In this document: in pieces, positions 6,682 to 51,007 of the stretch | Layout: each line of letters opens with the position of its first letter | How positions within the stretch are numbered: position 1 is the first letter of the stretch | NCBI RefSeq assembly: GCF_900107765.1 | Contig: NZ_FNQY01000028.1 | Location: 1 to 54,600, forward strand | DNA: 54,600 nt | Direction of reading: 5' to 3' | From: Arachidicoccus rhizosphaerae | Lineage (GTDB): Bacteria; Bacteroidota; Bacteroidia; Chitinophagales; Chitinophagaceae | The notes under the pieces: generated by a model | What the model saw: the letters and a program-made list of their open reading frames with translations, nothing else | The model's database searches: none | Told to the model about the DNA's origin: nothing | Translations under genes and position numbers: made by a program

Positions 6682-6698
6682 TAAAAATTTAGGGAGCT

Positions 6699-30120: not shown

Positions 30121-30173
30121 ACGCTCAAATTGTAATTACAACTAGAAACAGCAATATTCACATTTTCATTAAT

Positions 30174-32768: not shown

Positions 32769-32834
32769 ACAGTAATTTATCTGCCCGGCTTTATACTGGG
32801 AATATTTTGCCGTAACTTTATTGAAAACGAAGTG

Positions 32835-33566
32835 ATGACAAATCCGGCACATTCCGCTAAGGACAAAAATTTCCCTGTCAAAAAAGAAGGTAGGACAATC
32901 AGACTTTCAGGCACAGCCAAACTAGGTATAAGTCTGGGCCTGGCCCTATTATTTTTTCTGTTAGTAAAAGTACCCAAGACCGCACATCTGGTACTTAGCT
33001 GGGATGTGTTTTGCCTGAGCCAGATTGTACTGATATGGCTGGCGATGCTTACAGATTCAAAATCCATCAGAAAAGAAGCCCAGCATGAGGATAGCAGCCG
33101 TAGCTTTATTTTTATCCTTTCTTTGTTTGCCGCCTTATTTTCTATTTTCTCTGTCGTACAAATGGTCTTATCGGCTGGCACAGGCGAACTCTACAAAGCC
33201 CTCAACCTGATCAGCTGCCTCAGTTGCATGGTGCTTTCCTGGATCCTGGTCCATACCATCTTTACGGTCCGGTACGCGCATTTGTATTATGCCAGAGATA
33301 ATGCCAGAAAAGACAAGCATGCCGGCGGACTGGATTTCCCCACACACCCTGAGGATAAGCAAAACAACGTGAATCAATGGCCGGATTTTTTGGATTTTGC
33401 CTATTTTTCCTTTACGCTCGGCACCACTTTTCAGGTGTCCGATGTGGAAATATCCGATAAAAAAATCAGGCGAATCGCCATGGTTCACGGCCTTTTTTCC
33501 TTTGCATTCAATGCCGCAATTATTGCACTCAGTGTAAATATCATTTCTGGGCTTATAGAGAAATAA
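32835..33566 (+). CDS. DUF1345 family integral membrane protein
   Basis: 243 aa from ATG 32835 (a GTG lies directly before it). Five hydrophobic segments are visible: about 35-52, 60-77, 95-120, 130-152 and 215-240. The signature DFAYFSFTLGTTFQVSDVEIS (about 185-205) followed by RRIAMVHGLFSFAFNAAIIALSVNI is characteristic of DUF1345 proteins, whose function is unknown. The N-terminal 25 residues are basic and cytoplasmic by the positive-inside rule. It follows the GH20 gene by 66 nt and may be cotranscribed, though a functional link is not evident. Confidence 0.9.
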   Translation: MTNPAHSAKDKNFPVKKEGRTIRLSGTAKLGISLGLALLFFLLVKVPKTAHLVLSWDVFCLSQIVLIWLAMLTDSKSIRKEAQHEDSSRSFIFILSLFAALFSIFSVVQMVLSAGTGELYKALNLISCLSCMVLSWILVHTIFTVRYAHLYYARDNARKDKHAGGLDFPTHPEDKQNNVNQWPDFLDFAYFSFTLGTTFQVSDVEISDKKIRRIAMVHGLFSFAFNAAIIALSVNIISGLIEK

Positions 33567-33647
33567 GCAGGGAGAAGCTTTAAAATCCTTACCGCGAGCA
33601 CTGCAGGCGATAGCTGATTTTCTGTATATAGCCCCTCTATATTAAGG

Positions 33648-34835: not shown

Positions 34836-35167
34836 AAAGGTATAGATCGTTAAATTGAACAGATTTGGCGACAGGGTATCAAAATTAGCGTTTAAAGGAC
34901 TGCTATACAGCCACAATTATCCCCTAATTAGACATATTTTGGTTGGTTTCCCATAAAATACCTGTCCCCTGTGCCCTGCAAAACTAAACAAAGTATACTG
35001 GCTTTACAAATTTCTGGTTACAAGCGCCCCAAACTGCCTGTTTTGCTCTCCCGCACAAAGATTCCCTCCGGCCTCAACGATTCCCCCCTTACACGCTACA
35101 ATAAAAAGACTTTACTGATACCAATCATCCCTTTTTTACGAATGGCAGATACTTAAAGCTAATATTA
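34836..35167. other. intergenic region, no gene recognised
   Basis: 332 nt upstream of the GH88/105 gene and downstream of the AbiEii remnant. GACATATTTT at 34931-34940 matches the right half of the susC-upstream element, but a 10-nt AT-rich match is weak. Nothing else is evident. Confidence 0.35.
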
Positions 35168-36295
35168 TTATATGGCCGTCTGTACAACGTCCGTCAGATG
35201 CTTTGATAATCCATTGCCTGTTAATGGGCGCTCTGATTCAGAATGCTGGCTGCAGTCTTTTAATCTGGGCCACTGAATTCCGTTAAACCACTGATTGATT
35301 TGCTGTATTTTTCCGACCAAAACCGGAAAGTCCCACTGCTGGTCGAAGATGACCTCTTTTCTGAGTTTTCTGTAATCATCCATTAAAGGGCCCAATAGAT
35401 TCAGAGGCGGAATAAAACATAGCTTTTTAAAGGAGCAGCCTCTAAAAGAAGTGGTAGAGATTTTGAGCCATTCATTACGATGGCGTCGCAATCGGTTGAG
35501 TAAATTTTGATCCATACGGTCGGTCGTAGTACTCACTAGTTCAAATAACTGGACAATATCATATAAATGCCTGGCAGTACCTATTATTTTATAAGACGCC
35601 GGTTCTTCAATCCTGTAAAGTTCATGCAGTAAAAGCATTTTCTCCAGCAGGCATTGCATGGCTGATACACTACGAACCTTAAATCCTGTACCGGCCGCCT
35701 GAACAGTTTGTGGTCCTGTATAATAACTGAGTAAATCCTGTTGAATACTACTTACCTGACAAAGCACAATGCCCAGAAAGCTGCACCTGATTTTTATAAT
35801 ACCTTTCGGGTTATGAATTCCTCCATAAAGGCAGGGATATTCCACATAAATATCTCTGATCGGCTGAGCTTTTTGAGTGTCAGCCAGAAAGCCTGCCCTG
35901 ACCTCCACCTGCACGCCCGTCTTAAGTAAGGCCTTTTGTAGTTTAAATTTTAACTCCTTCACCAGTATTTTCTCTACAAAATCACAGCCTTGCCGTTGGA
36001 TATTCTGTAAAAATTCTAAGGAAGGATTTTTGGGAGCCCGGCATCCCAAAGCCGCCTGTGCTACAAGAATATCTATATTCCTGCTTAAAGCCGGTGCAGT
36101 CCTTCAATGGTTGCGTACACTCCTGGACCCATGTAAGGTTAAATACTCGGCACTGGGTATTTCAAAGAGTGCCTTAAGCACAAATGACTGCCACCAATCA
36201 TGTTCCAAAAGATGCTGGGGAATTCCGGAACGGGTGGTCGCAATTTTAAGTTGCTGTTGGCGCTCCTCTTTTGAGGCCATTAAAAACTGTTGCAT
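35168..36295 (-). pseudogene. AbiEii/AbiGii-type nucleotidyltransferase toxin, inactivated
   Basis: Both parts lie in one frame. Residues 1-63 (ATG 36295) read like the family N-terminus: KEERQQQLKIATTRSGIPQH and DWWQSFVLKALFEIPS. A TGA at 36104-36106 then interrupts, and the frame continues with SRNIDILVAQAALGCRAPKNPS through MQCLLEKMLLLHELYRIEEP and RHLYDIVQLFEL, typical AbiEii C-terminal segments. The catalytic GGTSLSK motif is GSRSVRN here, and the SEDID metal-binding motif is SRNID. The toxin is thus broken twice over: a stop codon and loss of key residues. No AbiEi antitoxin gene is seen upstream. A short protein from an internal start at 36049 would lack the active site. Confidence 0.8.
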
Positions 36296-36507: not shown

Positions 36508-37488
36508 TTATTTGAGCTGACTATAAAGGTTAGGATAATCCGTGATTAATCCATCCACGCCCATATCCTTTAAACTTTGCAATTCGCTGAGGGTATTGGG
36601 TGTCCAGGGGATGACTTTTACACCCTGTTTATGAAATCCGGCTATCAATTCCGGAGTAACGATATGATAATCAGGAGAAAATATGGTTGGAGTAAACCCT
36701 AAGGTATTGATATACCCCTGAACAGTATTGGTGTCCTTATCCCCTACCAGATAGGACGTCTGCATATCCGGAAAAGAATCATGGACCATCCTTAGCGCTC
36801 TGACGTCAAAGGATTGAATCATGGTTCTTTTGGCAATTCCTTTGTCTATTATAATGTGCAAGGCCTTGGACACATAAGTACCCAGATCAGGATAATGTAC
36901 GCTGTCCGCCTTGGGGCTGGTCTTTAATTCTATATTATAAAGATTGATATGATTTTTCTGTTTGGCATAGGCCTCAACGGAGTCAATTAAAACGGTAAGT
37001 AAGGGGCGAACGGCAGGAATTTTCCTTTGTTTGGTGAAATTAGGATACGGTTTTAAGCCTACGTCATATTTGGCAATAGAATCATAGGTCATATTAAAAA
37101 GAAGCCGGCTCAACCCATCCTTTTTATTCATCGTTTCTCCTTCCGGTGTCAGACAGAAATCTGCGTTAAAATAAGCATCATGGCTCACTACGATCTGACT
37201 GTCTTTAGACATCTGGAGATCCATTTCCAGGGTACAGTTATAATCTATTGCATTTTTTTCACTGGCGATCGTATTTTCCGGCATAAGCCCTCTGCCACCC
37301 CGATGCGCCTGGGCATCAAAACCGCTTAATGGTTTATTAGTCGCTGACGAGGTGCAACCTGACAGCAAGCTGACCGTAAGAGGTAAAATAAGCGCGCAGA
37401 CCGCATAGGATAAATTATTCTTTATGCGGCTGCCTGCTTTAGGTGTCTTCCCTTTTACAGGAAAGGATAGGTTAGTATTATGACTCAT
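36508..37488 (-). CDS. glycerophosphodiester phosphodiesterase, lipoprotein
   Basis: 326 aa from ATG 37488 (MSHNTNLSFP); a longer start at 37533 would overlap the end of the phospholipase gene region without purpose. LLSGC at 41-45 is a lipobox, so the enzyme is periplasmic or surface anchored. The GDPD signature AHRGGRGLMPENT (61-73) carries His62, Arg63 and metal-binding Glu71; EMDLQMSKDSQIVVSHD follows with Glu, Asp and catalytic His. The C-terminus ends GVDGLITDYPNLY. It hydrolyses glycerophosphodiesters such as glycerophosphocholine to glycerol-3-phosphate plus alcohol. It starts 57 nt after the phospholipase C gene, almost certainly in the same transcript. Confidence 0.95.
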   Translation of the reverse strand: MSHNTNLSFPVKGKTPKAGSRIKNNLSYAVCALILPLTVSLLSGCTSSATNKPLSGFDAQAHRGGRGLMPENTIASEKNAIDYNCTLEMDLQMSKDSQIVVSHDAYFNADFCLTPEGETMNKKDGLSRLLFNMTYDSIAKYDVGLKPYPNFTKQRKIPAVRPLLTVLIDSVEAYAKQKNHINLYNIELKTSPKADSVHYPDLGTYVSKALHIIIDKGIAKRTMIQSFDVRALRMVHDSFPDMQTSYLVGDKDTNTVQGYINTLGFTPTIFSPDYHIVTPELIAGFHKQGVKVIPWTPNTLSELQSLKDMGVDGLITDYPNLYSQLK

Positions 37489-37545
37489 ATTTTCTATATT
37501 TAAAGCACCAGATACCTTTGCAACTGGTCTCAAAAAATGCTTAAT

Positions 37546-40119
37546 TTAAACGCTCCCCAGCTGAGCATCTGAGACGGACTCTTTGCCCGTCTCCACCCTG
37601 CCGGCAAAATGCCTTTCAAAACTATCATTACCGGAGACTTTTATCACAAAATCATACCAGCCACCTGAGTTTTTTACATCCATTACCAATTCTGCATTCC
37701 CCTGCTGGGCAATCCTTCTTTTGATGGGAGATTTACCGTATGCCTTGTCTACGATTTCCAGTTCATGAGAGAATGTCCTGTCGGTATTACTAATTTTTAT
37801 TATCAGATTACCCGTAAGACTTCTTGTCATCATACGTTTAGTCTCATAGCTTAGGCTGATGGTAAGCCCAGGATCTTTGAGGGATCCTTTCAGTCCTCGG
37901 TAAAAGCCATTGGGACCATAAAGTCTTAAATCATACTGCTCTTTCTGAAAACCATTTAATGGCCAGCTATGTTGCAGACTATTGCCGGCAGTCAGGGCAA
38001 AATGCCAGACCCTTACCGGATCAAAATCCCTGGTATTGTTTTTTTCTGCTTCCCAGCTCAGATATCCGCCATGAGCATAGGCCATAAATGGAGCCCCAGC
38101 AGACTGATCAGCGAAGATCTGATTGCCTGCTTTCATGTTTATGGTAACCGATCCGCCCACCTTATCTAACTGCCCTTCCGCATAAAGTTCATAAGGAAGC
38201 GCCAATGAAGGTCTTGAGCCCGGTTCCTGGCGTGGCCGCCATTCGGACTGCCCAGGATTAGTTTTAAAAGTCTTAATATCATTGCTATCCAATGCTTTAT
38301 AACCTTTAGGTGCGTCTTTAAATTTTGCATTGTAAATACGTTGAACAAACTGGTCCCGATCCAGGAATGGCAGTTTTTCTTTACCTGCTTTTTCAAATTT
38401 AGTAAAGGCTGCCGTCAAATCGCCACAAATGGCACGCCGCCAATCGGTAATAGTTGCCTGATGCAATTGCTTCCCAAACTTCTTAGCCACAAATTTTTCG
38501 ATAAATTGTAAAGGCGAAGTATGATCCAGCACCTGAGAACAGACTTTACCACCTCTGCTCCAGGGTGATGCAATAATCATAGGCACTCTGAAGCCCAACC
38601 CAATTGGGCCTCCTCGCGCACCTTTTTTATTAATTCCGTCACGGAGTTCATTTTTCAACCTAACCTGTTCAGCTGCAGTTTCTTTAATATCACTGGTCAC
38701 TTTTCCTGTCATCGGATTCTCTGGGTCGGGAGCCACATAAGGTGGCACATGATCAAAATAACCATCATTTTCATCGTAGGTTAAAATAAAAATGGTCTTT
38801 TTCCAGACTTCCGGATTCTTGGTCAGAATATCTAAGATCTCAGAGGTTAGCCAGGTGCCGTACCAAGGAGCACTTGGATGGTCAGAAAAATTTTGAGAAG
38901 GGACCAGCCATGAAACAGTTGGCAATTGGCCGCTGTCGACATCTTTTCTGAATTGATAAAGGACATCCCCGGCAGGAACTTCGACTTCCCTTTTAACGCC
39001 GCCGTCTTTATAATTCAATTGTACAAGGTCACGGTACTTAGGATCCTGATTATTAATAACAAAAGCATTGTTATATAAACCTTTTTGATAATCAGAAAGT
39101 TTTTCAAACCGGTCCCTGGTCCAGCGTCCCACCTGCTGCTGCGCATCTGCCAACACTTCTTTTTTCTTGGCAATGGTAGCTCTGGCAGTGTCCCACTTAT
39201 CAGAATTCTCTTGTAGGTTACTCAGACCACCTTCCAGCTCCTTTATTTCTGATTGCAGTTTTTCCACGCGTATCTGGACAGTATTCAGATAGCCTGGCTG
39301 ATAACGCAAATTAAATTGTGACAAAAACTCCAGCGGGTTGCAGCCAAAATTAGAGAGCCACGCACGTTCATTACCTTTGTATCCGCCCACTGATGACAAA
39401 TCATTTTGATAAACTTTCCAGGAAATACCCAGCTCCTGAAGATTTTCAGGCATGGTTTTCCATCTGGCTTCTCCCCATGGAATATCATTGCGGATATAAG
39501 TTTTGGAGTCACTATTTTTTTCTTCTCTAATCGTTCCGCTCCATAAATATAACCTGTTGGGCCAGGTACTGGTCATAGCAGAACAATAATGCTGATCACA
39601 AATCGTAAACGCATCTGCCATCGCATAATTAAAAGGAAGGTCTTCTCTTATGTAATGCCCCAGCGTCAATGGCATATCCTTATACTGTGGATTGTCGGAT
39701 TTCTTAGCCTCCAGCCAACCGTCATATTTACTTAAATTGTCTGCATCAACCTGGCTTGCTCTGGAATGGGGAATAGACCCCATCCAGGTAATCTTACTAT
39801 CTGCTATACTAAATCGAAAAGGGGCATAAGTTTCGCCCTTCTTATTGGTTTGTAACCAAACCGGATTACTATCCGGTAATGTTATGGCTCTTGGGTCATT
39901 AAACCCGCGCACACCTCTCAGTGCACCAAAACAGTGATCAAAAGCCCTGTTTTCCTGCATCAAAATAACAATATGTTCTGCCTGATAAAAATCACTTCCT
40001 TCTTCAGGGTCTATAGACAAGGCTTTTTTTATAGAAGCTGGAACAGCGGAAGCCACCCCGACAGCGCCAGACAATAACATAGCTTTTTTTAAAAATTCTC
40101 TTCTTGAGTCCATCATCAT
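37546..40119 (-). CDS. plcC: phosphocholine-type phospholipase C (acid phosphatase superfamily)
   Basis: 857 aa. The start has three consecutive ATG codons (40119-40111). A Tat signal SRREFLKKAMLLSGAVGVASA precedes the phosphoesterase domain, with IVILMQENRAFDHCFGALRGVRGF (about 50-73), DHPSAPWYG (413-421), and LTYDENDGYFDHVPPY (446-461), the family's metal-binding sites. Two C-terminal repeats (about 655-750 and 755-845) match the DUF756 domains of bacterial PC-PLC. The protein is longer than the usual 690-730 aa because of a predicted coiled-coil insertion around 280-350 (EKLQSEIKELEGGLSNLQEN). It would release phosphocholine from phosphatidylcholine or sphingomyelin outside the inner membrane. 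Symbol is by family only. Confidence 0.92.
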   Translation of the reverse strand: MMMDSRREFLKKAMLLSGAVGVASAVPASIKKALSIDPEEGSDFYQAEHIVILMQENRAFDHCFGALRGVRGFNDPRAITLPDSNPVWLQTNKKGETYAPFRFSIADSKITWMGSIPHSRASQVDADNLSKYDGWLEAKKSDNPQYKDMPLTLGHYIREDLPFNYAMADAFTICDQHYCSAMTSTWPNRLYLWSGTIREEKNSDSKTYIRNDIPWGEARWKTMPENLQELGISWKVYQNDLSSVGGYKGNERAWLSNFGCNPLEFLSQFNLRYQPGYLNTVQIRVEKLQSEIKELEGGLSNLQENSDKWDTARATIAKKKEVLADAQQQVGRWTRDRFEKLSDYQKGLYNNAFVINNQDPKYRDLVQLNYKDGGVKREVEVPAGDVLYQFRKDVDSGQLPTVSWLVPSQNFSDHPSAPWYGTWLTSEILDILTKNPEVWKKTIFILTYDENDGYFDHVPPYVAPDPENPMTGKVTSDIKETAAEQVRLKNELRDGINKKGARGGPIGLGFRVPMIIASPWSRGGKVCSQVLDHTSPLQFIEKFVAKKFGKQLHQATITDWRRAICGDLTAAFTKFEKAGKEKLPFLDRDQFVQRIYNAKFKDAPKGYKALDSNDIKTFKTNPGQSEWRPRQEPGSRPSLALPYELYAEGQLDKVGGSVTINMKAGNQIFADQSAGAPFMAYAHGGYLSWEAEKNNTRDFDPVRVWHFALTAGNSLQHSWPLNGFQKEQYDLRLYGPNGFYRGLKGSLKDPGLTISLSYETKRMMTRSLTGNLIIKISNTDRTFSHELEIVDKAYGKSPIKRRIAQQGNAELVMDVKNSGGWYDFVIKVSGNDSFERHFAGRVETGKESVSDAQLGSV

Positions 40120-40401
40120 ATTTATTTAAAAAATACCACCTGTAGTATAGCTGTAGCAACCCATAGCTTTTTAATCTTCAATTTGCGAATTGAAAGATAA
40201 ATATACAATTATTTATACGTTCTTCTCTTAGCTTTAAAATTGTTTTACAATTTAATCATATTTCATTTTTTATACACTGGCGCGTAATAAAAACCTAAGT
40301 GCTTTATTATGAAAACCGAACCTTTCTCAGATTAAATTTTTCTTACCTTATCATCAGAATGCCCGGCATTTATAAAACCTGGCAGGACAAAATGGATACC
40401 C

Positions 40402-40445
40402 GCCAGCTGTCAGTTACACCTGCTGTCTTTTTAAGGACAGCTGGC
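40402..40445. other. hairpin between susD and the phospholipase gene
   Basis: GCCAGCTGTC (40402-40411) pairs with GACAGCTGGC (40436-40445). An alternative partner GCTGTC (40422-40427) competes for the same right arm with an 8-nt loop. It lies 64 nt after the susD stop, in the 389-nt gap 40120-40508. The competing stems could act as a partial terminator or mRNA stabiliser. The rest of the gap is AT-rich and holds the presumed phospholipase promoter. Confidence 0.5.
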
Positions 40446-40508
40446 AGATCACTACAGGCAGGCAGGCCTCCCATTTAACTCATCTACCCCTTGGATCTTA
40501 CCTGTATA

Positions 40509-42080
40509 CTAATAACCAGCAGATTGTTCCAGATTTGGGTTGAGATCCTTTTGTACCTGCGGAATAGGCCACCAGTAATCTCTGGCCGGATCAAAGGTCC
40601 GGGTTTCGATGGCACTATGATTATAGGTATAAATCTTCTGATTCAGCTCTGTCTCGGCCGTCTTCCATCGCCTTATATCATTATAATAGAGCGCTTCACC
40701 CGCAAATTCTATGCGTCTTTCCAGATGAATAATGTTGCGCATGGAATCCTGTGTATAAGTACCTGTAATTTCCGGCATTCCCGCCCTGTTCCTGATCTGA
40801 TTCAGGGCAGACAATACTTTATCATCTGGTCCAGAGACTTCATTTCTTGCCTCAGCATACATCATCAGTATATCCGCATATCTGAGTACGATAAAATTAG
40901 TATACGACTGCCCTCCCTTTAAATCTGAAACATCAGAAGAAGCCGTTTCTTTATCATACACCGTATATTTTTTCATGCCATATCCGGTGATTGAAAACCG
41001 TGTATTAGTTACCGGTACTCCCATAAAAGTATCGCCGGGGAATACGATAGTCGCGTAAAGCCTGGGATCTCTGTTTTTATATGGATCACCGGCATCGTAT
41101 CCGCTATTAGGGTTGTTGATAGCAAGACCATTATCCATTTCATAAGCCTCCGCCAATCCCAGCAAAGGTGCATTGGTATTATACTGCCGTCCAATCAGAT
41201 CAAATGAATTACCTAAATCAGGATAAATAAACTGTACATCAAAAATCACTTCTTTGTTATTTTCATTTTCGGGCAAAAACAGGCTTCTGTAATTACCGAA
41301 TAAACCATACCCTGCCTGAGGAGCAGCATCTATAACAGCCTGTGCGGCATCCTCAGCTGCCTGCCATTTCTCCTTGCTATTATCTGTATTGAGCAGTGGA
41401 CTGGCTTCATATAATAAAATCCTTGCTTTTAAGCTCATGGCAGCACCTTTGGTAGCACGCCCCTGATCTGCCGAACCATATTTAAACGGTAGCAGACTAG
41501 ACGCACTATCCAGATCTTTTAATATTTGATTCACTACTTCAACCCGGTCCGTTCTTGGCAGTTCCGCCTGTGTACTCACATCTGGAGGATCCAGAATTAA
41601 CGGAATACCACCATAATAATTCTCCAGATTAAAATAATAAAGGGCTCTTAAAAAATAGACTTCTCCCCGCATCCGGGCATAATCATCTGCATCGAGCGGC
41701 ACCTCGCCGGCGTGTGCTAAAAATGAATTACAACGTCCTATTCCTGCGTAACAGTTCTGATAGCGGGTTGGAATTATCCCCTCACTGGAGGCTTCCTGCG
41801 TCCCCTCAGCAATCGCATTAAAGCCCATGGAGTTACTATAGTTATATGCATTCGGGGATGCCGTTTCCTCCCAAAGCGCAGTGGCCTCTCCACCATACAT
41901 ACCTGAATAAGTCAGTACTGCATAGCAGCCGGTGAGTGCGGCGTCAACCGCAGCTTCTGATTCCCAGAAATTACCTTCCACGTATTTATTATCGGGAGAA
42001 GTATCCAGTAAGCTTTTACTGCAACTACCCAACAGCAATATTGCTGATGAAAGGACCAGTATTATATTTTTGAATTGCAT
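40509..42080 (-). CDS. RagB/SusD family lipoprotein of the phospholipase locus
   Basis: 523 aa. The lipobox LLGSC puts the acylated Cys at residue 20. Helical SusD repeats include VYFLRALYYFNLENYYGGIPLI (about 143-164), GAAMSLKARILLYEASPLL, and FIVLRYADILMMYAEARNEV, with the C-terminal RRIEFAGEALYYNDIRRWK and PIPQVQKDLNPNLEQSAGY. It is the surface ligand-binding partner of the SusC 46 nt upstream. SusD proteins usually bind glycans; here the two downstream genes act on phospholipid head groups, so a glycerophosphodiester or phosphorylated polymer ligand is possible. Confidence 0.95.
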   Translation of the reverse strand: MQFKNIILVLSSAILLLGSCSKSLLDTSPDNKYVEGNFWESEAAVDAALTGCYAVLTYSGMYGGEATALWEETASPNAYNYSNSMGFNAIAEGTQEASSEGIIPTRYQNCYAGIGRCNSFLAHAGEVPLDADDYARMRGEVYFLRALYYFNLENYYGGIPLILDPPDVSTQAELPRTDRVEVVNQILKDLDSASSLLPFKYGSADQGRATKGAAMSLKARILLYEASPLLNTDNSKEKWQAAEDAAQAVIDAAPQAGYGLFGNYRSLFLPENENNKEVIFDVQFIYPDLGNSFDLIGRQYNTNAPLLGLAEAYEMDNGLAINNPNSGYDAGDPYKNRDPRLYATIVFPGDTFMGVPVTNTRFSITGYGMKKYTVYDKETASSDVSDLKGGQSYTNFIVLRYADILMMYAEARNEVSGPDDKVLSALNQIRNRAGMPEITGTYTQDSMRNIIHLERRIEFAGEALYYNDIRRWKTAETELNQKIYTYNHSAIETRTFDPARDYWWPIPQVQKDLNPNLEQSAGY

Positions 42081-42126
42081 GACTACAAATTTTATTGGTT
42101 AATATTTAATCTCAATTACGACTTAT

Positions 42127-45100
42127 CTAAAATGTAATCTTAACGCCTCCACTAAGCGTTTTTAACATCGGATAATGATAAAGGGAAGACACATTTAAAG
42201 TTGTCTCCGGATCATAATCCTTGTATTTAGAGAAAGTCAGATAATTTTCTGCATTAACATATATAGTAAACTGAGAAATCTTCACCCTGTTCAGCCATTT
42301 AGCCGGCAGTTCATAAGCCAGCTGGATATTTTTCATCCGCAGATAAGAGCCGTCTCTTAACCAAAAATCAGAGGCCTTAAAATTATCATCTCCGTCCGTG
42401 CTGGTGGTAACAATAGGCAGCCTGGCACCTGTATTTTCCGGGGTCCAGGCATCCTTGGCCCACCGCCAGGTAGCTCCCGCTCCGTTATTAAACGGAAAAA
42501 CAAGATTCCCTTCCGGATAAATCTTAAGTCCCCCTACTCCCTGGAAAAAAGCACTCAGGGACAGCCCCTTATAACCAAAGTCCAGATTAAAACCATAGGT
42601 ATACTTCGGCATTGCTGAAGAGGATTTTATGATAACTCTGTCATCAGCGTTAATTACACCGTCATTATTAACATCCCGGTATTTAATATACCCCGCTTTT
42701 GTACTAACTGACTGAAAAGGGCTGTTAGCCACTTCTTCATCACTTTGAAAAATGCCGATGGCATCCAGAATATAATAAGAATCAATAGGCAGACCCTCCT
42801 TGGTAATGGTGGCCAGGTTGGTATTATAGCTATATAGAATCTGACCATCAATATCCACCACTTTGTTTTGATTAAAGGAGATATTGCCATTCACACCATA
42901 GTTAAAGTCTCCTATGTGATCATGATATCCCAGGGTCAGTTCCACACCTTTATTATCCATCACACCGATGTTTTGCTGTGGTCCTGTCAAACCACCTACC
43001 TGATCGGGAATATCTACAGCACGAAGGATATTGGAAGTTCTTTTCTTGTATACATCCGCTGAGAAGTTTAAACGGTGATTCAATAACTCCAGATCCAGCC
43101 CTACATTATAATTAGTGGTCGTTTCCCAGGTGATGGTTGGATCCGTATAGGCGGTAGCGGCAGCACCGGAAGCAAGTGTTCCTCCGAAACTATAATTTCT
43201 GCCCAGGTTAATGGAGTTCTCATAACTGTACAAGGGTACCGCCTGGTTACCTACCTGTCCATAGGAAGCGCGAACTTTTGCCAGGTTTACCGTATTTTTC
43301 CAGGGAAAAAAGTTTTCTTTATCTAAACGCCAGCCAGCGGAGATACCGGGGAAAGAGCCCCAGCGTCTACCATCCGCAAACCGGGAAGAACCATCTGTGC
43401 GGAGAATGCCTTCTAAAAGATACTTACCTTTATAATCATAATTCGCTCTGCCAAAATAAGAAATCAGTACATCCGTGGTGGAATTACCTCCCGTTGCATA
43501 CCGCTCTGTACCGGCATCCAGCGCTGTCAGCGTTGCATCCAGATAACCTGTCATGGAGGCATCAAAATTTTTGGTTTCAAAATGATCATAGCTGGTTCCC
43601 ACCATTAAGCTCAGATGATGATCGCCAAAACTTTTATTCCAATCCAATGTCTGGTAAAAATGTTGATTCAGATTATTGTAATCAGTATTAGAGGATCTGG
43701 GTGCCGTGGAAGGACTGTTCCAATTAATATAGGAAGTCGGTATTTTGGGATTCCAGGTTTTTACCTGGGGTGTAAATTCTTCCAATAAACCATCATATTT
43801 ATCAATCCCGAATTTAATATTGTAGGTCAGGTTAAAGGGCAATTTATAATTTGCAAAAACACTGGTTACAAAGCGCTGTACCGTTTTATGGCCATAGCCG
43901 GTATACGCGATCATTCGTGGATTTTCCCAGTTATTTCTGCCCGGCGTACGCATCCAGGAATTTCCAAATCTGCCATCAGACAGCGTATCTGTTAAAATAG
44001 GCAGGGAACGCATCAGATAACTCCAGAAACTGGTATAAAAGGGCTGGGTATAATTTCTATAATAACCATCCAGCGTCATCCCTACTGTCAGCCGTTTGGA
44101 CACTTTAAAACTGGTATTTAATCCGATAGAATATTTTTTCTCATGATTGCCAGGCCCTATCATAATCCCATTTCTGTCTAAAAATCCTAAAGACAACCGG
44201 TAGGAGGCTTTATCGTTACTCCCGGATATACTCACATCATGTTTTTGAATTCTTCCGTTTTTTAAAGCAATATCAAACCAATTACTGGAGGGATAGGTAA
44301 TTGGATCCGTTTTCATTCCCGCTTCATATTCGGCGATCTCTTCATCAGAGTAATCTACGGCATCCTTACCTTCATTAATCAGGGCCTGATTTTTAAGTTT
44401 CATATATTCAATTGGATCCCAGATAACATCGGGCATGTACGTATAATTTTGTACGCCATGGTAAAAATTGTAATTGATTTTAGCCTGTCCGTGACCCGTT
44501 TTTGTGGTCACCAGAATCACACCATTTCCCGCTCTGGACCCATAAATGGCCGCCGAGGCATCTTTTAAGATGGTAACAGTGGCAATATCATTGGGATTGA
44601 GCTCATTTAAATCATATTCTACCCCATCTACCAATACAAGGGGATCATTGTCATTTAAAGTTCCAATACCTCTGATTCGTATCGTTGCCCGGTCTACTCC
44701 CGGTTGGCTGTTGGAAAGATTCACAAATAGGCCGGGGACTCCATGCAAGGCGTTGCTGGCGTTGGTGATAGGTTGTCCCTCTTTTTTGGTCATATCTACT
44801 GCTGTCACGGCTCCGGTCAGATTAACTTTTTTCTGTGTCCCGTAACCAACAACCACGACACTAGTCAAATCATTCGCATCTTCCTTTAATGCGATGACGC
44901 CTACTGAGCTACTTTGAATAACCAGGCTTTCACTCAGATAACCAATCATGGTTACATTAAGAGAATCTCCCACATTGGCTGCAATGGAAAATCCCCCATC
45001 ACTACCAGTAAGAGTATTTGTATTACTACCCGTTAAATGCACAGTAGCTCCTGCCAGCGGAGTCTGATCCTTAGCAGACACCACTATGCCTTTAATCTGA

Positions 45101-45180
45101 GATTGAGCAAAGACCATTACCGAACAAATAGAAAAGCCAATTAACAACCCCAGACGCCATTTAAGCAAAGAACATTGCAT
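42127..45180 (-). CDS. SusC/RagA family TonB-linked outer membrane protein of the phospholipase locus
   Basis: 1017 aa from ATG 45180 (MQCSLLKWRLG), which opens a normal signal peptide ending MVFAQ; an upstream in-frame TTG/ATG region to 45222 adds a basic, unlikely extension. A carboxypeptidase-D-like domain (about 29-100) precedes the signature TSVVVVGYGTQKKVNLTGAV (about 107-126), then a plug with DPLVLVDGVEYDLNELNPNDIATVTILKDASAAIYGSRAGNGVILVTT-type sequence, and a barrel ending MLKTLSGGVKITF. It forms the TonB-dependent importer with the following SusD. No FecR or ECF sigma gene accompanies it. Confidence 0.95.
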   Translation of the reverse strand: MQCSLLKWRLGLLIGFSICSVMVFAQSQIKGIVVSAKDQTPLAGATVHLTGSNTNTLTGSDGGFSIAANVGDSLNVTMIGYLSESLVIQSSSVGVIALKEDANDLTSVVVVGYGTQKKVNLTGAVTAVDMTKKEGQPITNASNALHGVPGLFVNLSNSQPGVDRATIRIRGIGTLNDNDPLVLVDGVEYDLNELNPNDIATVTILKDASAAIYGSRAGNGVILVTTKTGHGQAKINYNFYHGVQNYTYMPDVIWDPIEYMKLKNQALINEGKDAVDYSDEEIAEYEAGMKTDPITYPSSNWFDIALKNGRIQKHDVSISGSNDKASYRLSLGFLDRNGIMIGPGNHEKKYSIGLNTSFKVSKRLTVGMTLDGYYRNYTQPFYTSFWSYLMRSLPILTDTLSDGRFGNSWMRTPGRNNWENPRMIAYTGYGHKTVQRFVTSVFANYKLPFNLTYNIKFGIDKYDGLLEEFTPQVKTWNPKIPTSYINWNSPSTAPRSSNTDYNNLNQHFYQTLDWNKSFGDHHLSLMVGTSYDHFETKNFDASMTGYLDATLTALDAGTERYATGGNSTTDVLISYFGRANYDYKGKYLLEGILRTDGSSRFADGRRWGSFPGISAGWRLDKENFFPWKNTVNLAKVRASYGQVGNQAVPLYSYENSINLGRNYSFGGTLASGAAATAYTDPTITWETTTNYNVGLDLELLNHRLNFSADVYKKRTSNILRAVDIPDQVGGLTGPQQNIGVMDNKGVELTLGYHDHIGDFNYGVNGNISFNQNKVVDIDGQILYSYNTNLATITKEGLPIDSYYILDAIGIFQSDEEVANSPFQSVSTKAGYIKYRDVNNDGVINADDRVIIKSSSAMPKYTYGFNLDFGYKGLSLSAFFQGVGGLKIYPEGNLVFPFNNGAGATWRWAKDAWTPENTGARLPIVTTSTDGDDNFKASDFWLRDGSYLRMKNIQLAYELPAKWLNRVKISQFTIYVNAENYLTFSKYKDYDPETTLNVSSLYHYPMLKTLSGGVKITF

Positions 45181-45676
45181 TTTGAAGCATCCGGGCCTTT
45201 TCCTGAAAATTGTAAATACCATAATTTACGCTTTAGGGTTTAATAGAGAATGTAAAAGCACAAGTGATGTAATAATTTTTTTCTTAAGAATCAAAATTTT
45301 AGGTGCATACACGTGAATAGGATTATATATAGTTTGTATTATCAATGAGTAACACGCCGCTGCGGATTCCATAATTCCATCAATACACAAAGGATAATCG
45401 GATACATCGTCGTTAGGTGATATTTTACCCACGGCAAATAATATATGATGATAGCTATCCACAACGGACACTGATTAACGACTGTGCAGATGCTTAACAG
45501 TCAAATGACGCCCAATGCGCCAACAATAATGTAGGCCTTCAGGTTCCTCTCCCCCACTTACTCCCCGGCAATCGACTTTTTAAAATTCTCTGGCACGCCT
45601 CATGTACAATCTTTATTCACTTCAATCCTTCTGGCTCACTTCCAATATATACTTTTTTAATATGATGTTTTATTTA
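45181..45676. other. intergenic region upstream of susC, no gene recognised
   Basis: 496 nt between glpD (stop at 45677) and susC. It must hold the susC promoter, but no full TTTG / TAnnTTTG match was found; TATCCTTTG on the minus strand near 45382-45390 is a near match with one extra base. No terminator for glpD was recognised. Confidence 0.4.
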
Positions 45677-47248
45677 TCAGGTTAACAAATACCCTTTTGC
45701 AAGACTGGTAAATTCAGCCACTTGTGCGTCTATCCATTTTTGATCCTTGTCTAATTCTGTCGCCATAATCTGCGCCACTGGCCCGGCCAGTTCAATGGCC
45801 TTTTTAGCATCGGTAAACAATAGACGGGTTCTTCGGGCCAGTAGATCTTCAATAGTATGAGCCATTTCATATCGGACCGCCCAAATTACCTGAATAGTGA
45901 GCAATCTGTCATATCCGGCTACAGGCTTTGCCAACTCCGGCAGACTTTCAATAAAAGCGTTTATTAATTTTTTATCCGAACCATATCCGGATAAGGGATC
46001 TCCGCTATCATCTAATGGTGCAGCTCCGTGAATAGGAAGATCAACGGTTTTACAGGAAGCCTCCGGCAATAAGCCTTCCTGAATCATTTTACCTATGGTA
46101 TCTTCCGCCATTTTTCTATAGGTTGTCCATTTACCACCAACTATTGATACCAGCCCGCTTTCAGCCACTAGCACCTTATGACTTCTGGATATCTCCTTGG
46201 TTTTATCGGATTGATCAGAGGTCGCAGCCAAAGGACGGAGTCCTGCATAAACACTCTGGACATCACTTCTGGCAGGGGCAATTTCCAGATATTTACCGGC
46301 AGTTTTTAATATGAATTCAATTTCCTCTTCCAGCGCTCTGGGCTCCAGCGAATGTGCATTCAGCGGTGTATCTGTTGTGCCCATCAGCACCTTATCAAAC
46401 CAAGGTAACACAAACAGTACCCGGCCGTCCTCGGTTTTGGGAATCATGATGCCAGTCTTACTGTTTAAAAATTTCTTATCCAATACTAGGTGTATTCCCT
46501 GGCTTGGACGAATCATGGTTTTCGCGCCAGCGTTATCCATATGCAGAATTTCATCTGCAAAAACGCCCGTGGCATTCACCACACTGGAGGCTTTTACAGG
46601 GTGAACAATGCCGGTCAGCTGGTCTGTAAGTACAAGTCCGTTAATTTTACCCTCTTTATTTTTACTAAGACTGGTAACCCTCATATAATTAAGGCAGGTG
46701 CCACCATATTCAACAGCGGTCTGCGCCAGATTAAGCGCCAGACGTGCATCATCAAAAGTACCATCATGATAGAGCACGCCGCAGGTAAGGCCGTGTTTTT
46801 GAACAGTCGGCAATCTTTTTGACAATGTTGTCTTTTTGATCAGCATTGATTTTCCAAAACTCAGTCTACCGGCAAGAGCGTCATAGAGTTTTAGCCCGAC
46901 TGTATATTTTATCGCGCTCAGAAAACTATAACAAGGGATAATGATTGATTCATTTCTGGTCAGATGTGGTGCATTTTGCAGTAAACGCCCCCTTTCCTTC
47001 AGCGCCTCTCTAACAAGGCCGATATCCCCCTGGGCCAGGTACCGTACGCCACCATGCACCAGTTTTGTGCTTCTGCTGGAGGTCCCTTTGGCAAAATCAG
47101 CCTGTTCTACCAGTAAAGTCTTATAACCCCTGGTGGCTCCATCCACTGCGATTCCAAGCCCAGTGGCGCCGCCACCGATAACAACTAAGTCCCAGGTTTC
47201 ATGGCTTTCCAGTGATTTCAGTAATGTATTTCTATCGAACAATTCCAT
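45677..47248 (-). CDS. glpD: aerobic glycerol-3-phosphate dehydrogenase
   Basis: 523 aa. The FAD dinucleotide fold is at residues 21-50 (VVIGGGATGLGIAVDGATRG; G25, G27, G30), followed by the GlpD signature FAKGTSSRSTKLVHGGVRYLAQGD. VLFVLPWFDKVLMGTTDTPL and GLVSIVGGKWTTYRKMAEDTI are further family motifs, and the C-terminal helical DAO_C domain closes the protein. It oxidises glycerol-3-phosphate to dihydroxyacetone phosphate, passing electrons to quinone at the inner membrane. The gene is divergent from glpR, with a candidate operator at 47356-47372. This step connects the neighbouring phosphodiesterase and glycerol kinase to glycolysis. Confidence 0.95.
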   Translation of the reverse strand: MELFDRNTLLKSLESHETWDLVVIGGGATGLGIAVDGATRGYKTLLVEQADFAKGTSSRSTKLVHGGVRYLAQGDIGLVREALKERGRLLQNAPHLTRNESIIIPCYSFLSAIKYTVGLKLYDALAGRLSFGKSMLIKKTTLSKRLPTVQKHGLTCGVLYHDGTFDDARLALNLAQTAVEYGGTCLNYMRVTSLSKNKEGKINGLVLTDQLTGIVHPVKASSVVNATGVFADEILHMDNAGAKTMIRPSQGIHLVLDKKFLNSKTGIMIPKTEDGRVLFVLPWFDKVLMGTTDTPLNAHSLEPRALEEEIEFILKTAGKYLEIAPARSDVQSVYAGLRPLAATSDQSDKTKEISRSHKVLVAESGLVSIVGGKWTTYRKMAEDTIGKMIQEGLLPEASCKTVDLPIHGAAPLDDSGDPLSGYGSDKKLINAFIESLPELAKPVAGYDRLLTIQVIWAVRYEMAHTIEDLLARRTRLLFTDAKKAIELAGPVAQIMATELDKDQKWIDAQVAEFTSLAKGYLLT

Positions 47249-47355
47249 TGATACGATTTAAATTTTAACGGTCGTTGCCTCAGGCTCCAAGATTCGGTGT
47301 ATGTAGGTTGCAACAGCCTTAAATATCACAATATAGCTTCGTATGATACTAATAA

Positions 47356-47372
47356 ATGTTTCATTTATTTTC
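47356..47372. promoter_or_regulatory. candidate GlpR operator upstream of glpD
   Basis: ATGTTTCATTTATTTTC, identical at 16 of 17 positions to 48605-48621 upstream of glpK. It lies 108 nt from the glpD start. TTTC[AG]TTT resembles the TTTCGTTT half-sites known for DeoR/GlpR-family regulators; TTTCGTTTT also occurs on the minus strand at about 47392-47400. Confidence 0.55.
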
Positions 47373-47548
47373 TAAACAAATAATAAAACAACAAAACGAA
47401 ATTAAAGATAAACAATCAGAAATCACAAATAAAATATAAAGAAAATCTAAAATTTTTTATAACCAGTTGATATCAAATGAATTAATTCGACAGTAGCGGC
47501 TTTATTAACAAATTTAAATTTTTATAATGCCAAGTGCTTATCATTCAG

Positions 47549-47556
47549 TACCTTTG
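47549..47556 (+). promoter_or_regulatory. -7 element of the glpR promoter
   Basis: TACCTTTG, a full TAnnTTTG match, 18 nt before the ATG at 47574. The -33 position shows only TTTA-like sequence, so the promoter is probably weak. The leader would be about 10 nt. Confidence 0.5.
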
Positions 47557-47573
47557 TTGTCAAAACTATATCT

Positions 47574-48338
47574 ATGGCCAGTTTAGAGAGACATCAACAA
47601 ATCATTGACATAGTACATCAAAAGGGTTATGAGAGCGTTTCCAATCTTTGCAAGTCTTTAAAAGTTTCAGCGGTTACCATACGAAAGGACCTTAAGCTTC
47701 TGGAAAAAGCAGGAAAACTTTACAGAACCCACGGTGGCGCGTCCAATACCAATCCCTTTACCACTGACCGACCAGTTAATGAAAAGGAGATGATACAGAC
47801 CTCGGAGAAAAAATCCATCGGTAAAAAAGCGGCTACCTATATCACGGCGGATGATTCAATTATTATTGCCTCCGGTACAACCATGCTTGCGCTGGCCAGG
47901 GAAATATTACCTCAGCAAAAATTAATCGTTATTACCTCTGCCCTGCAGGTCGCAAGCGAACTTGTCAAGCACAACAACGTGGATATCATGCAGCTAGGTG
48001 GCATTGTCCGCCAGAGTTCTTCCTCAGTAGTAGGTAGTTATGCCGAGGATATTCTGAAAGATTTTTTCTGCACTAAACTCTATTTAGGCGTGGACGGCAT
48101 CGATTTTGAGTTCGGTCTTACCACCAGCAATTCCATGGAAGCCCAACTGAACAAATCCATGATCAGTGTAGTGCAAAAGGTTGTTGTGCTGGCTGATCAT
48201 ACCAAATTCGGTAAAAGAGGCTTTAGTAAAATCTGCGGACTCCATGATATCGATGAAATCATAACAGATAAAGGGATATCACCTGCAATTGTTGATCAAT
48301 GTCAAAAGCTGGGCATAAAAATAACGATTGCTGAATAA
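47574..48338 (+). CDS. glpR: DeoR/GlpR-family transcriptional regulator
   Basis: 254 aa. An N-terminal winged HTH (about 5-57, RHQQIIDIVHQKGYESVSNLCKSLKVSAVTIRKDLKLLEKAG) carries the DeoR signature, with LYRTHGGAS after it. The C-terminal DeoRC sensor domain shows TADDSIIIASGTTMLALAREI, LGVDGIDFEFGLTTSNSMEAQLNKSMI and KFGKRGFSKICGLHDIDEIITD, which bind a sugar phosphate. Its position between glpD and glpKF indicates repression of those genes, relieved by glycerol-3-phosphate as in E. coli GlpR. The assignment of ligand is by context. Confidence 0.9.
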   Translation: MASLERHQQIIDIVHQKGYESVSNLCKSLKVSAVTIRKDLKLLEKAGKLYRTHGGASNTNPFTTDRPVNEKEMIQTSEKKSIGKKAATYITADDSIIIASGTTMLALAREILPQQKLIVITSALQVASELVKHNNVDIMQLGGIVRQSSSSVVGSYAEDILKDFFCTKLYLGVDGIDFEFGLTTSNSMEAQLNKSMISVVQKVVVLADHTKFGKRGFSKICGLHDIDEIITDKGISPAIVDQCQKLGIKITIAE

Positions 48339-48604
48339 GCGATTCCCCCTATCTCTGCCGCCCTGGCCGAAAGATTTCACTTCCTGAACATCCACCCCTT
48401 ACGTACTTTCTATAGCGAAGACAATTAATCGATTAAGCGAGATTTAATTTTAATACTGAATAACGCTTCCCAACTGGCATATTTCCCGCCTTAACATAAT
48501 TTAGACATCTAACCCACTGATTAGCATTTAATTGTTAAGAAAATTTTATTTATTTTTACTATTTCCTTTTTTTATATTTTCAGATATGTTAATTTGCATT
48601 TGAT

Positions 48605-48621
48605 ATGTTTCGTTTATTTTC
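48605..48621. promoter_or_regulatory. candidate GlpR operator overlapping the glpK promoter
   Basis: ATGTTTCGTTTATTTTC, 97 nt before the glpK ATG, differing at one position from the glpD-side element. TTTG (48593-48596) and TATTTTCA (48615-48622, six of eight matches to TAnnTTTG, 18-nt spacing) suggest the promoter overlaps it, which would suit repression. A short imperfect stem AGACTA/TAGTCT follows at 48650-48681. Confidence 0.55.
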
Positions 48622-48717
48622 ACTTAATCTAAAAATGAAAGCACGTAGCAGACTATTTCCTTATATCCCTTTTGGTAGTCTATGCTGACATGCACCATAT
48701 TTAAACCAATCTTTCAA

Positions 48718-50220
48718 ATGGAAAAATATATCCTGACCCTTGATCAAGGCACTACAAGTTCCCGAGCGATTTTATTTAATCATCAGGGCGAGATTGTTTC
48801 TCTTGCCCAAAAGGAGTTTACCCAGATCTACCCGGAACCAGGCTGGGTAGAACATGACCCTATGGAAATCTGGTCCACCCAGGCAAGTGTAATTACCGAG
48901 GCTGTTTTACAAAAGGGAATTGACAGGCAGGCACTTGCCGCCATCGGCATCACCAACCAAAGAGAAACTACAGTTATTTGGGATCGCAACACCGGACAAC
49001 CCATCTATAATGCCATCGTCTGGCAAGACAGAAGGACATCTGCCATCTGTGACCAATTAAAAAAGGAAGGCAAAGCGGCTGTCATCCAGGAAAAAACTGG
49101 TTTAATTATAGACGCTTATTTTTCCGGAACAAAAATCCAGTGGATTCTTGATCATGTGGCAGGAGCCAGACAACGGGCAGAAAACGGAGAGTTGGCCTTT
49201 GGCACTGTTGACAGTTGGTTAATCTGGAATCTAACCTCCGGGCAGCTGCATATTACGGATGTAACCAATGCTTCCAGAACGATGCTTTATAACATCCACA
49301 CATTAAACTGGGATGAAGAGTTATTGGAATTATTACAGATACCGGCTGCTCTTTTACCTGAAGTAAGAAGTTCCAGCGAAGTTTATGGCCGCACTTCCGG
49401 CAATCTATTGGGTACCCAGGTACCTATTGCAGGGATAGCAGGAGACCAACAGTCTGCTTTATTCGGGCATATGTGTAATCAGCCGGGAATGGTCAAAAAT
49501 ACCTATGGGACTGGGTGCTTTATGTTGATGAATATAGGCAATAAACCGCGTATTTCTAAAAATAATCTGATTACCACGATTGCCTGGAAGATTGGTGATC
49601 AGGTACAGTATGCGCTGGAAGGAAGTATATTTATCGCGGGCGCAGTCGTACAGTGGCTCCGGGACGAATTAAAAATGATTGATACCGCCTCAGAAATTGA
49701 AACGCTGGCCACCACTGTTGCGGACAGCGGTGGCGTATATATGGTACCCGCTTTTGCAGGATTAGGAGCGCCTCATTGGAATCAGGATGCCAGAGGCAGT
49801 ATTTTTGGCATTACCAGAGGAACCAGTAAAAATCATTTTTGCAGAGCCGCACTGGAAAGTATCGCTTATCAGACAATGGACGTTTTAACTGCCATGCAAA
49901 ATGACGCCGGACTCACCATTAATCAACTTCGGGTGGATGGCGGCGCTACTGCCAACAATTTACTTTTGCAGTTCCAGGCGGATATTTTAAATACTGAAGT
50001 CCTCAGACCCCATATCACAGAAATAACGGCTATTGGCGCCGCCTATTTAGCAGGGCTGGCCGTTGGATTTTGGGAAAATATTCAGGCCATTGAAAAACAA
50101 TGGCAGGTAAATCGCAACTTTACTCCCACAGGCAATGATATGACTCAAAAAATAAAAGGCTGGCAAAGAGCCGTCAAGGCAGTAGAGGCCTGGACAAACT
50201 TAGATCAAGCCTCCAATTAA
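48718..50220 (+). CDS. glpK: glycerol kinase
   Basis: 500 aa from ATG 48718 ([18 protein letters not shown]), matching the E. coli enzyme length; a Met 12 codons earlier is less likely. FGGY signatures are [65 protein letters not shown] and [20 protein letters not shown]. It phosphorylates glycerol to glycerol-3-phosphate using ATP in the cytosol. It precedes glpF by 49 nt as one transcript and is preceded by the candidate GlpR site at 48605-48621. It would serve glycerol released when lipids or phosphodiesters are fully hydrolysed. Confidence 0.97.
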
Positions 50221-50269
50221 TAACAACTACCCTATTCATTAAACCTTTACTTTTTATAAAGCAAATTAC

Positions 50270-51007
50270 ATGAATCCATTAGTCGCTGAATTTATCGGAA
50301 CTATGATACTTATCCTGCTTGGCAACGGAGTTGTAGCCAATGTCCTATTAAAGGACACCAAGGGAAATGATAGTGGCTGGATTGTCATTACCACAGGCTG
50401 GGCGCTTGCGGTATTCGCAGGAGTTATCATCGCAGGCCCATACAGCGGTGCACATTTAAATCCGGCAGTATCTATCGGTCTGGCCATCGCCGGTAAATTT
50501 GCCTGGTCCCGGGTACCGGGATTTATCCTGGCGCAATTGTTAGGGGCTATGGCGGGTGCGTGGCTGGTTTATTTAATGTACAAGGATCACTTTAATGCGA
50601 CTAAGGCTCCGGGACTTGAAGCCGCCTGTTTTTATACCAGCCCAGCCATTAAAAATGCCAGACTTAATGTATTAAGTGAAGTACTCGGAACATTCGTCCT
50701 GATTCTGGCAGTCTTTTATATTACCGGCGGAGAATTCGGGGAAGCTAAAACGCCCATAGGACTTGGTTCAATTGGCGCCATACCTGTAGCTTTTATCGTC
50801 TGGGCCATCGGCCTTTCACTGGGAGGTACTACTGGCTATGCCATCAATCCTATCCGCGACCTTGGGCCAAGAATCACACATGCGCTTCTGCCTCTGAAAG
50901 ATAAAAATAAATCTGATTGGCAGTATGCCTGGGTGCCCATTATCGGTCCAATCATCGGATGCGCCATTGCGGCTGGGCTTTATTTACTGCTCAGCTCAAA
51001 TGGCTAA
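50270..51007 (+). CDS. glpF: glycerol facilitator (aquaglyceroporin, MIP family)
   Basis: 245 aa with six TM segments and two half-helices. The first NPA motif is at 64-66 (GAHLNPAVS). The second is NPIRD at 193-197, where Ile replaces the usual Ala, but Arg196 and the following Asp197 mark the glycerol-conducting (GlpF) branch rather than water channels. It allows glycerol to cross the inner membrane and be trapped by GlpK, encoded 49 nt upstream. The 408 nt to the next gene carry no plus-strand terminator that I can see. Confidence 0.93.
   Translation: MNPLVAEFIGTMILILLGNGVVANVLLKDTKGNDSGWIVITTGWALAVFAGVIIAGPYSGAHLNPAVSIGLAIAGKFAWSRVPGFILAQLLGAMAGAWLVYLMYKDHFNATKAPGLEAACFYTSPAIKNARLNVLSEVLGTFVLILAVFYITGGEFGEAKTPIGLGSIGAIPVAFIVWAIGLSLGGTTGYAINPIRDLGPRITHALLPLKDKNKSDWQYAWVPIIGPIIGCAIAAGLYLLLSSNG

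Follow-up and report, generated by a model that had tools for sequence, protein, structure and literature searches.

The importers most typical of Bacteroidota are SusCD pairs; for many of these no substrate is known, and a glycan is usually assumed. Could such a pair serve a substrate of another kind? Organic-phosphorus SusCD loci, named PUSI and PUSII (PusCD), were described in 2020 in Flavobacterium johnsoniae and its relatives (PMC8115612). Here, we analyse a locus of Arachidicoccus rhizosphaerae in which susC and susD stand beside genes for a phosphocholine-type phospholipase C (PC-PLC, or PLC), a glycerophosphodiesterase (GDPD) and the glycerol genes glpD, glpR, glpK and glpF. The window, that is, the whole stretch of 54,600 nucleotides that was analysed, is one entire contig (NZ_FNQY01000028.1) of the 4.87-Mb genome. 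An earlier note on this DNA had proposed that the SusCD pair imports a lipid-derived or polymeric glycerophosphodiester, and that such loci are not a described class. As to the latter claim, no SusCD clade linked to the glycerol regulon came up in searches of open-licence papers, a scope that makes the absence weak. The claim has to be softened, since organic-phosphorus SusCD loci had already been described as PUS loci (PMC8115612).

Spread and gene content of the SusD clade

The SusCD clade to which the window locus belongs is tied to glpR, glpD, glpK and glpF, and to GDPD in two thirds of its loci. Locus counts rest on the best 80 of 102 relatives found by a scan of GTDB genomes with a five-row SusD alignment; L034 and L036, from the same genomes as L067 and L069, were dropped before counting. 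A quick tree was built from 77 SusDs (the window and 76 loci), with the fragments L082, L083, L084, L101, L107 and L117 left out. All 30 glp-linked rows of the tree fall within one 34-row clade (SH-aLRT 95), and the glp label changes 4 times on the tree, against a mean of 24 when shuffled. The named genera of the clade are Arachidicoccus, Chitinophaga, Parafilimonas and Thermoflavifilum in Chitinophagales, Pontibacter in Cytophagales, and Olivibacter, Anseongella and Sphingobacterium in Sphingobacteriales.

Neighbours were counted over at most 10 kb on each side of 36 clade loci (window included), 9 loci of the sister group and 38 paralogue loci. At least one of glpR, glpD and glpF occurs in 31 of the 36 clade loci and in none of the sister or paralogue loci. 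Taken singly, glpR is present in 29 clade loci, glpD in 23, and glpK and glpF in 21 each, again with no occurrence in the other two groups. GDPD was found in 24 clade loci, 1 sister locus and 7 paralogue loci. PafA (8/36), PLC (6/36), GDSL lipase (4/36), HAD acid phosphatase (3/36) and N-acetylmuramoyl-L-alanine amidase (6/36) were all absent from both comparison groups, while a calcineurin-type phosphatase was found in 3 clade, 2 sister and no paralogue loci. The clade-locus PafA was identified by the solved PafA structure 5tj3 (1.2e-202). It should be noted that the profiles were made from clade loci and a subset of neighbours was scanned, and other phosphatases near paralogues may escape; the GDPD profile, though clade-derived, did detect the seven near paralogues. 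Split frames were kept as separate pieces (PLC and susC in L043; susC in L054, L069 and L083; susD in L083; glpK in L063).

All five of glpR, glpD, glpK, glpF and GDPD occur together in the window and in 18 of the 35 clade loci fetched besides it. L045 was scored through a cut glpF, and longer DNA revealed its full set of glpR and glpDKF. Five clade loci are without glp genes (L044, L064, L065, L066 and L082); in L044, L066 and L082 the contigs stop 0-3.5 kb upstream of susD. The synteny is not confined to this genome, a point on which the earlier note had made its proposal depend: the SusCD-glp link is kept across three orders.

The usual form, found in Chitinophaga, is glpR beside a closely spaced glpD-glpK-glpF-GDPD-susC-susD run, an order common to Chitinophaga and Pontibacter. 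The loci L049 and L052, of C. ginsengisegetis and C. arvensicola, show the glpDKF-GDPD-susCD run in full. The median gaps are 54 bp for glpF-GDPD (n=15), 38 bp for GDPD-susC (n=16) and 53 bp for glpD-glpK (n=17), and such short gaps suggest operon organisation. PafA adjoins susD, from behind, in eight clade loci. The order is glpD-GDPD-susCD-PafA in Thermoflavifilum, glpDKF-susCD-GDPD-HAD phosphatase-GDSL lipase-metallophosphatase in Olivibacter, and glpDKF-susCD-purple acid phosphatase-susCD-PLC-GDSL lipase in Parafilimonas. Arachidicoccus has a looser form with GDPD last, where the glpD-susC gap is 425-638 bp (n=2) and, in the window, 454 bp. That is, across the clade the order is reshuffled yet the gene set is kept.

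The clade is thinly spread, since few genomes match in the searches at any rank. The window SusD was searched against the order (298 genomes, with up to five candidates scored in each and matches listed at E <=1e-60); four orthologues besides the window were found at 56-75% identity, and all other listed matches are at or below 39%. In the family, 19 of 394 genomes matched at E <=1e-90, its own included, 17 with a copy at 53% or more and two with only 45-46%; in the phylum search 2 of 395 genomes matched, its own included. The SusD of A. ginsenosidivorans is 82% identical to that of the window. Residues specific to the clade are R179, E225-L229 and R470, as numbered in the window SusD.

The earlier note had treated susCD, PLC and GDPD as the unit whose conservation was to be looked for. 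Among the loci seen, that exact unit occurs in Arachidicoccus alone, and Parafilimonas has a PLC-GDSL version. PLC lies on the same strand behind the clade SusCD in only four of the 36 loci (the window, L033, L043 and L045), among the loci seen in Arachidicoccus and Parafilimonas only; in two others (L062 and L069) it is convergent, beside another SusCD. In 117 genomes of the family, 61 PC-PLC matches above the cut-off were found and 40 were examined, the survey omitting four genes of the own genome, the clade gene of another Arachidicoccus genome (G180) and 16 genes that start less than 70 kb from the contig start and leave no room for a control. susCD lies within 7 kb of PC-PLC in 15 of the 40 cases, against 9 of 40 control regions situated 60 kb upstream. 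Since L198 among these controls is the glp-SusCD locus of G180 itself, the corrected control figure is 8 of 39. PC-PLC directly follows susD on the same strand in 6 of the 40 (L135, L149, L152, L154, L156 and L158), of which L156 (Parafilimonas) belongs to the clade and is L045. On these figures PLC was rejected as the core of the system. GDPD was likewise rejected as a specific marker, for it follows susD in 7 of the 38 paralogue loci. These seven (L093, L096, L104, L105, L106, L108 and L111), from Niastella, Larkinella, Arcticibacter, Chitinophaga and a metagenome-assembled genome of Chitinophagaceae, have GDPD shortly after susD and no glp genes, and form a separate SusCD-GDPD lineage.

Three further observations follow. 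Two more PC-PLCs of the own genome also come after susCD, in these cases pairs of the SusD-like_2 type (L010, 7475-15135; L011, 7880-16902). One stands directly behind susCD, with an ECF sigma/FecR pair upstream; in the other locus a DUF5689 protein separates susD from PLC. SusCD-linked PC-PLCs thus make up three of the genome's four, each with different SusCDs. The PLC of A. ginsenosidivorans (L043, 12080-14700) is in two pieces, through a frameshift or an assembly fault. DUF6528 (PF20138), found in 3 of 36 clade, 5 of 9 sister and no paralogue loci (L046 at 7428-8438, L048, L060, L072, L074, L075, L077 and L078; the L060 copy stands behind a different SusCD), is a candidate for an accessory function in this lineage of SusDs.

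The locus in Arachidicoccus rhizosphaerae

On the minus strand of the window the order is glpD-susC-susD-PC-PLC-GDPD, and glpR-glpK-glpF run divergently on the plus strand. All eight genes are open frames, and the gene order given by the earlier note was confirmed, glpR being named by gene order only. The SusC-type TonB-dependent transporter (42127..45222, minus strand) scores 875 bits with TIGR04056 (cut-off 368). It is followed after a 46-bp gap by the SusD-type lipoprotein of the glp-linked clade (40509..42080, minus strand), recognised by PF07980 (1.6e-46) and the tree, so that the two are adjacent as in a SusCD uptake locus. The PC-PLC (37546..40119, minus strand; 857 aa) has a twin-arginine signal, scores 716 bits with TIGR03396 (cut-off 580), carries the C-terminal domain PF05506 and matches the solved phospholipase C 9gy2 at 6.5e-106. 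The GDPD lipoprotein (36508..37533, minus strand) matches PF03009 at 7.5e-30 (105 bits, cut-off 23.6), with 3ch0 as the nearest solved structure (8e-63); its true start is likely an internal ATG at codon 16. Export signals are legible as SRREFL at residue 5 of PLC and as lipoboxes in GDPD (LSGC at 57) and SusD (LGSC at 17). GDPD further has HRG at 77, E-x-D at 103 and SHD at 117, in keeping with the catalytic motifs HR, E-x-D and H of the GDPD family. HRG, E-x-D and HD are legible in 24 of the 25 GDPDs examined, L050 having HN instead.

GlpD, the glycerol-3-phosphate dehydrogenase (45677..47248, minus strand), was called from PF01266 (2.3e-54) and PF16901 (8.9e-18) and scores below the NCBIfam glpD cut-offs. 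On the plus strand, the DeoR-family regulator (47574..48338; PF00455 and PF08220), GlpR by position, is followed by glycerol kinase GlpK (48682..50220; TIGR01311 747 bits, cut-off 590) and the glycerol facilitator GlpF of the MIP family (50270..51007; PF00230 4.8e-43; TIGR00861 174 bits, cut-off 171).

Two putative GlpR operators were found on the plus strand, TGTTTCATTTATTTTC between glpD and glpR (47357..47372) and TGTTTCGTTTATTTTC before glpK (48606..48621). The 16-mer TGTTTCRTTTATTTTC has just two exact copies in the 4.87-Mb genome, at these two places, and a related run is legible at both places in G180 and A. ginsenosidivorans. There are two further sites with one mismatch in the genome, one of them at 10392-10407 of the window, upstream of an FtsX/MacB-like gene. 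A 14-mer operator pattern with three mismatches gave no excess over chance (26 seen, 27 expected). In seven loci (L035, L055, L058, L060, L061, L068 and L083) the arrangement is reduced to glpR divergent from susC. In one of them, L055, the DNA between these two genes looks, by eye, similar to that between glpR and glpD in L049, so that in the L055 type susC borders on the region of the regulator itself.

Beyond GDPD lie, by Pfam, a GH88 gene (33648-34916, minus strand) and a GH20 gene (30096-32768, plus strand). For GH20, DUF1345 and GH88 (30096-34916), related genes occupy the corresponding position in G180 and A. ginsenosidivorans. Between GDPD and GH88 is an AbiEii-type nucleotidyl transferase (35168-36049; weak Pfam match, 3.8e-06), whose relative in G180 is split into two shorter frames. 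Elsewhere in the window a second SusCD pair is found on the minus strand (susC 6699-9980, susD 4906-6681), followed by an endonuclease/exonuclease/phosphatase-family protein (3450-4349); this locus (3450-9980) is possibly another SusCD locus for a phospho-substrate. No Rfam family reached the gathering score within 30000-54600, and a search for inverted repeats in four intergenic stretches gave nothing usable.

Proposed pathway and alternative explanations

The locus is probably a member of a conserved family of nutrient-uptake SusCD loci linked to glp genes, in which a GlpR-linked, carbon-sensing importer would take up water-soluble glycerophospho compounds. We propose that SusD and SusC would bind and import, with TonB energy, the products of the breakdown of phospholipids or glycerol-phosphate polymers, such as glycerophosphocholine, glycerophosphoethanolamine, glycerophosphoglycerol and short glycerol-phosphate oligomers. 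The GDPD lipoprotein would cut them into glycerol-3-phosphate and an alcohol, and a periplasmic phosphatase (PafA or similar) would turn glycerol-3-phosphate into glycerol and phosphate. Glycerol would then enter through GlpF, be rephosphorylated by GlpK and be oxidised by GlpD to dihydroxyacetone phosphate, with the DeoR-type regulator tuning the system to the carbon backbone and not to phosphate starvation. The added PC-PLC in Arachidicoccus, and PC-PLC with GDSL lipase in Parafilimonas, may feed the same pathway from intact phospholipids. As regards the substrate proposed in the earlier note, the glp link and the fact that phosphohydrolases are the commonest enzymes beside SusCD (GDPD in 24, PafA in 8 and PLC in 6 of 36 loci) speak for it, while PLC falls outside the core.

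The earlier note had found no GlpT-type carrier in the window and regarded the inner-membrane uptake of glycerol-3-phosphate as a gap. This holds beyond the window: a genome-wide search for GlpT (TIGR00712) at E 1e-5 gave no match. Eight of 14 controls, E. coli among them, did match in this search, which did not include Ugp or other carriers of the major facilitator superfamily. The genome has a single match to GlpD and two GDPDs, and it encodes PafA on another contig; a search of it for the HAD phosphatase of G180, made without a positive control, found none. A phosphatase together with GlpF and GlpK likely replaces GlpT, which would close the gap. Glycerol phosphates are listed among the substrates in phosphatase growth tests (PMC8812569), and the order from GDPD through PafA to GlpF, GlpK and GlpD is consistent with these tests.

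Several observations weigh against this proposal. Nine glp-linked clade loci (L035, L046, L048, L055, L058, L060, L061, L068 and L083) have no GDPD, PafA, PLC, HAD phosphatase or metallophosphatase by the profiles within 10 kb; therefore glpR is a steadier partner than any phosphohydrolase. GDPD alone is unspecific, since it also follows susD among the paralogues, and inspection of the window GDPD for a surface-export motif showed no obvious signal. The Sphingobacterium loci L064 and L065 carry GDPD and two FGGY kinases and have no glp gene within 10 kb. Some neighbours look sugar-related: besides the GH88 and GH20 genes of the window, these are a BNR-repeat protein on the far side of glpR (L035, L060, L061 and L068) and, in L066 (downstream) and L045, genes of oxidoreductase and xylose-isomerase-like type. 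The regulator scores best with AgaR (238, cut-off 260), followed by GlpR_Halo (190, cut-off 300) and PRK10906 (131, cut-off 331), and because it is below every NCBIfam equivalog cut-off, it is called GlpR from gene order. The 16-mer with at most two mismatches is seen three times against 0.18 expected, for a pattern derived from two of those very matches. Lastly, the 454 bp before the window susC (45223..45676) hold no copy of the putative operator, and GlpR control of this susC is therefore unproven; it would need read-through from glpD.

Some of these points would be expected if an unrelated glycan-importing SusCD had simply landed by a glp cluster: the wide glpD-susC gap without an operator copy, the nine loci without a recognised phosphohydrolase, and the sugar-type GH88 and GH20 genes beyond GDPD, with relatives in both other Arachidicoccus loci. 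Against this, 31 of 36 clade loci in three orders are glp-linked in rearranged gene orders, against none of the 47 other SusDs. The scanned proteins of clade loci gave one glycoside hydrolase (GH92 in L052, on the other strand) and one BNR-repeat protein beyond glpR (L035), and the scanned genes directly behind susD are mostly phosphohydrolases. We regard this explanation as very improbable.

SusCD pairs generally handle oligomers, and the substrate might instead be a glycerol-phosphate polymer or oligomer from Gram-positive wall or lipoteichoic acid or from a capsule, with GDPD as an exo-lytic teichoicase, and not the small deacylated phospholipids. The amidase, which lies no more than 10 kb away in 6 of the 36 clade loci, fits a wall-derived substrate, as does the finding that the glycerophosphodiesterase GlpQ of Bacillus subtilis distinguishes phosphoglycerol wall from lipoteichoic acids (PMC7086022). 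However, that amidase (L061 at 11678-12499, L035, L060, L068, L082 and L083) is on the strand opposite to the clade susD in all six loci, no teichoic-acid glycosidase was seen among the scanned neighbours, and the PC-PLC and GDSL lipase of some members point to phospholipids. A polymer substrate is an unlikely alternative. Phosphate scavenging of the PUS type, induced by low phosphate, with glp neighbours that merely dispose of the carbon, we hold to be rather unlikely. Known PusCD loci also join SusCD to phosphodiesterases and phosphatases, with a GDPD-type domain (pf13653) in PhoA1 of PUSII (PMC8115612), and PafA is present in eight clade loci; against this stand the DeoR-type GlpR in 29 of 36 clade loci, the lack of a response regulator in a Pfam scan of 31 window proteins, and the description of PafA as phosphate-insensitive (PMC8812569).

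Whether the glp-linked loci form a distinct, still unnamed SusCD class is an evenly balanced question. Such a class would perform GlpR-controlled, carbon-sensing import of phospholipid-derived glycerophosphodiesters in Chitinophagales, Sphingobacteriales and Cytophagales, with capture, hydrolysis, dephosphorylation and glycerol catabolism in one cluster and without a GlpT-type permease. The recurrence in three orders suggests that phospholipid-derived glycerol-phosphate backbones are taken up by a dedicated route; both the substrate and the regulation of the clade SusCD are inferred. A SusCD clade tied to glycerol-phosphate genes points to a concrete substrate other than a glycan, one open to testing, and leads to the prediction that phospholipid debris is food for Chitinophaga and its relatives. 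If true, the proposal would explain how a bacterium without GlpT uses glycerol-3-phosphate compounds, and would separate a carbon-sensing arm of organic-phosphorus cycling from the phosphate-sensing PUS loci.

Comparison with known systems

The PC-PLC system of Pseudomonas aeruginosa is not known to involve a SusCD, and differs in organism and regulation. The likeness is that breakdown of phosphatidylcholine by PLC feeds glycerol catabolism there as well (PMC4113454). Classical polysaccharide utilisation loci (PULs) resemble the present locus in that SusCD, exported enzymes, a regulator and catabolic genes are clustered together. They differ in that no glycoside hydrolase or polysaccharide lyase lies between glpR and GDPD here, and that the imported compound would be a C3-phospho backbone and not a glycan. 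Besides susCD, the stretch from glpD to GDPD holds just PLC and GDPD, with no carbohydrate-active enzyme, and we do not class the locus as a classical PUL; this would be revised if GH88 were co-transcribed with the window unit.

In the glp regulons of E. coli (GlpQ with GlpT/UgpB) and Bacillus (GlpQ with GlpT), GDPD is coupled to GlpF, GlpK and GlpD and to a glycerol-phosphate regulator, and here GDPD stands with the same three genes and a putative GlpR. The difference is that no GlpT was found, that SusCD would provide outer-membrane uptake, and that a phosphatase and GlpF probably take the place of GlpT.

PUS loci are the nearest of the known systems: phosphodiesterases or phosphomonoesterases, and not glycoside hydrolases, adjoin SusCD, six forms of PusD are distinguished, and an organic-phosphorus substrate is proposed (PMC8115612). 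The same co-localisation is found here, as PLC and GDPD in the window and as GDPD in 24 and PafA in 8 of the 36 clade loci. However, PUS loci were defined by induction on phosphate depletion (PMC8115612). The passages of that paper on PUS loci mention inner-membrane transporters of organic phosphorus and name no glpR, glpK or glpD (PMC8115612), whereas the neighbours of the present clade are a DeoR-type regulator and the catabolic set for glycerol and glycerol-3-phosphate, together with GDPD or PC-PLC.

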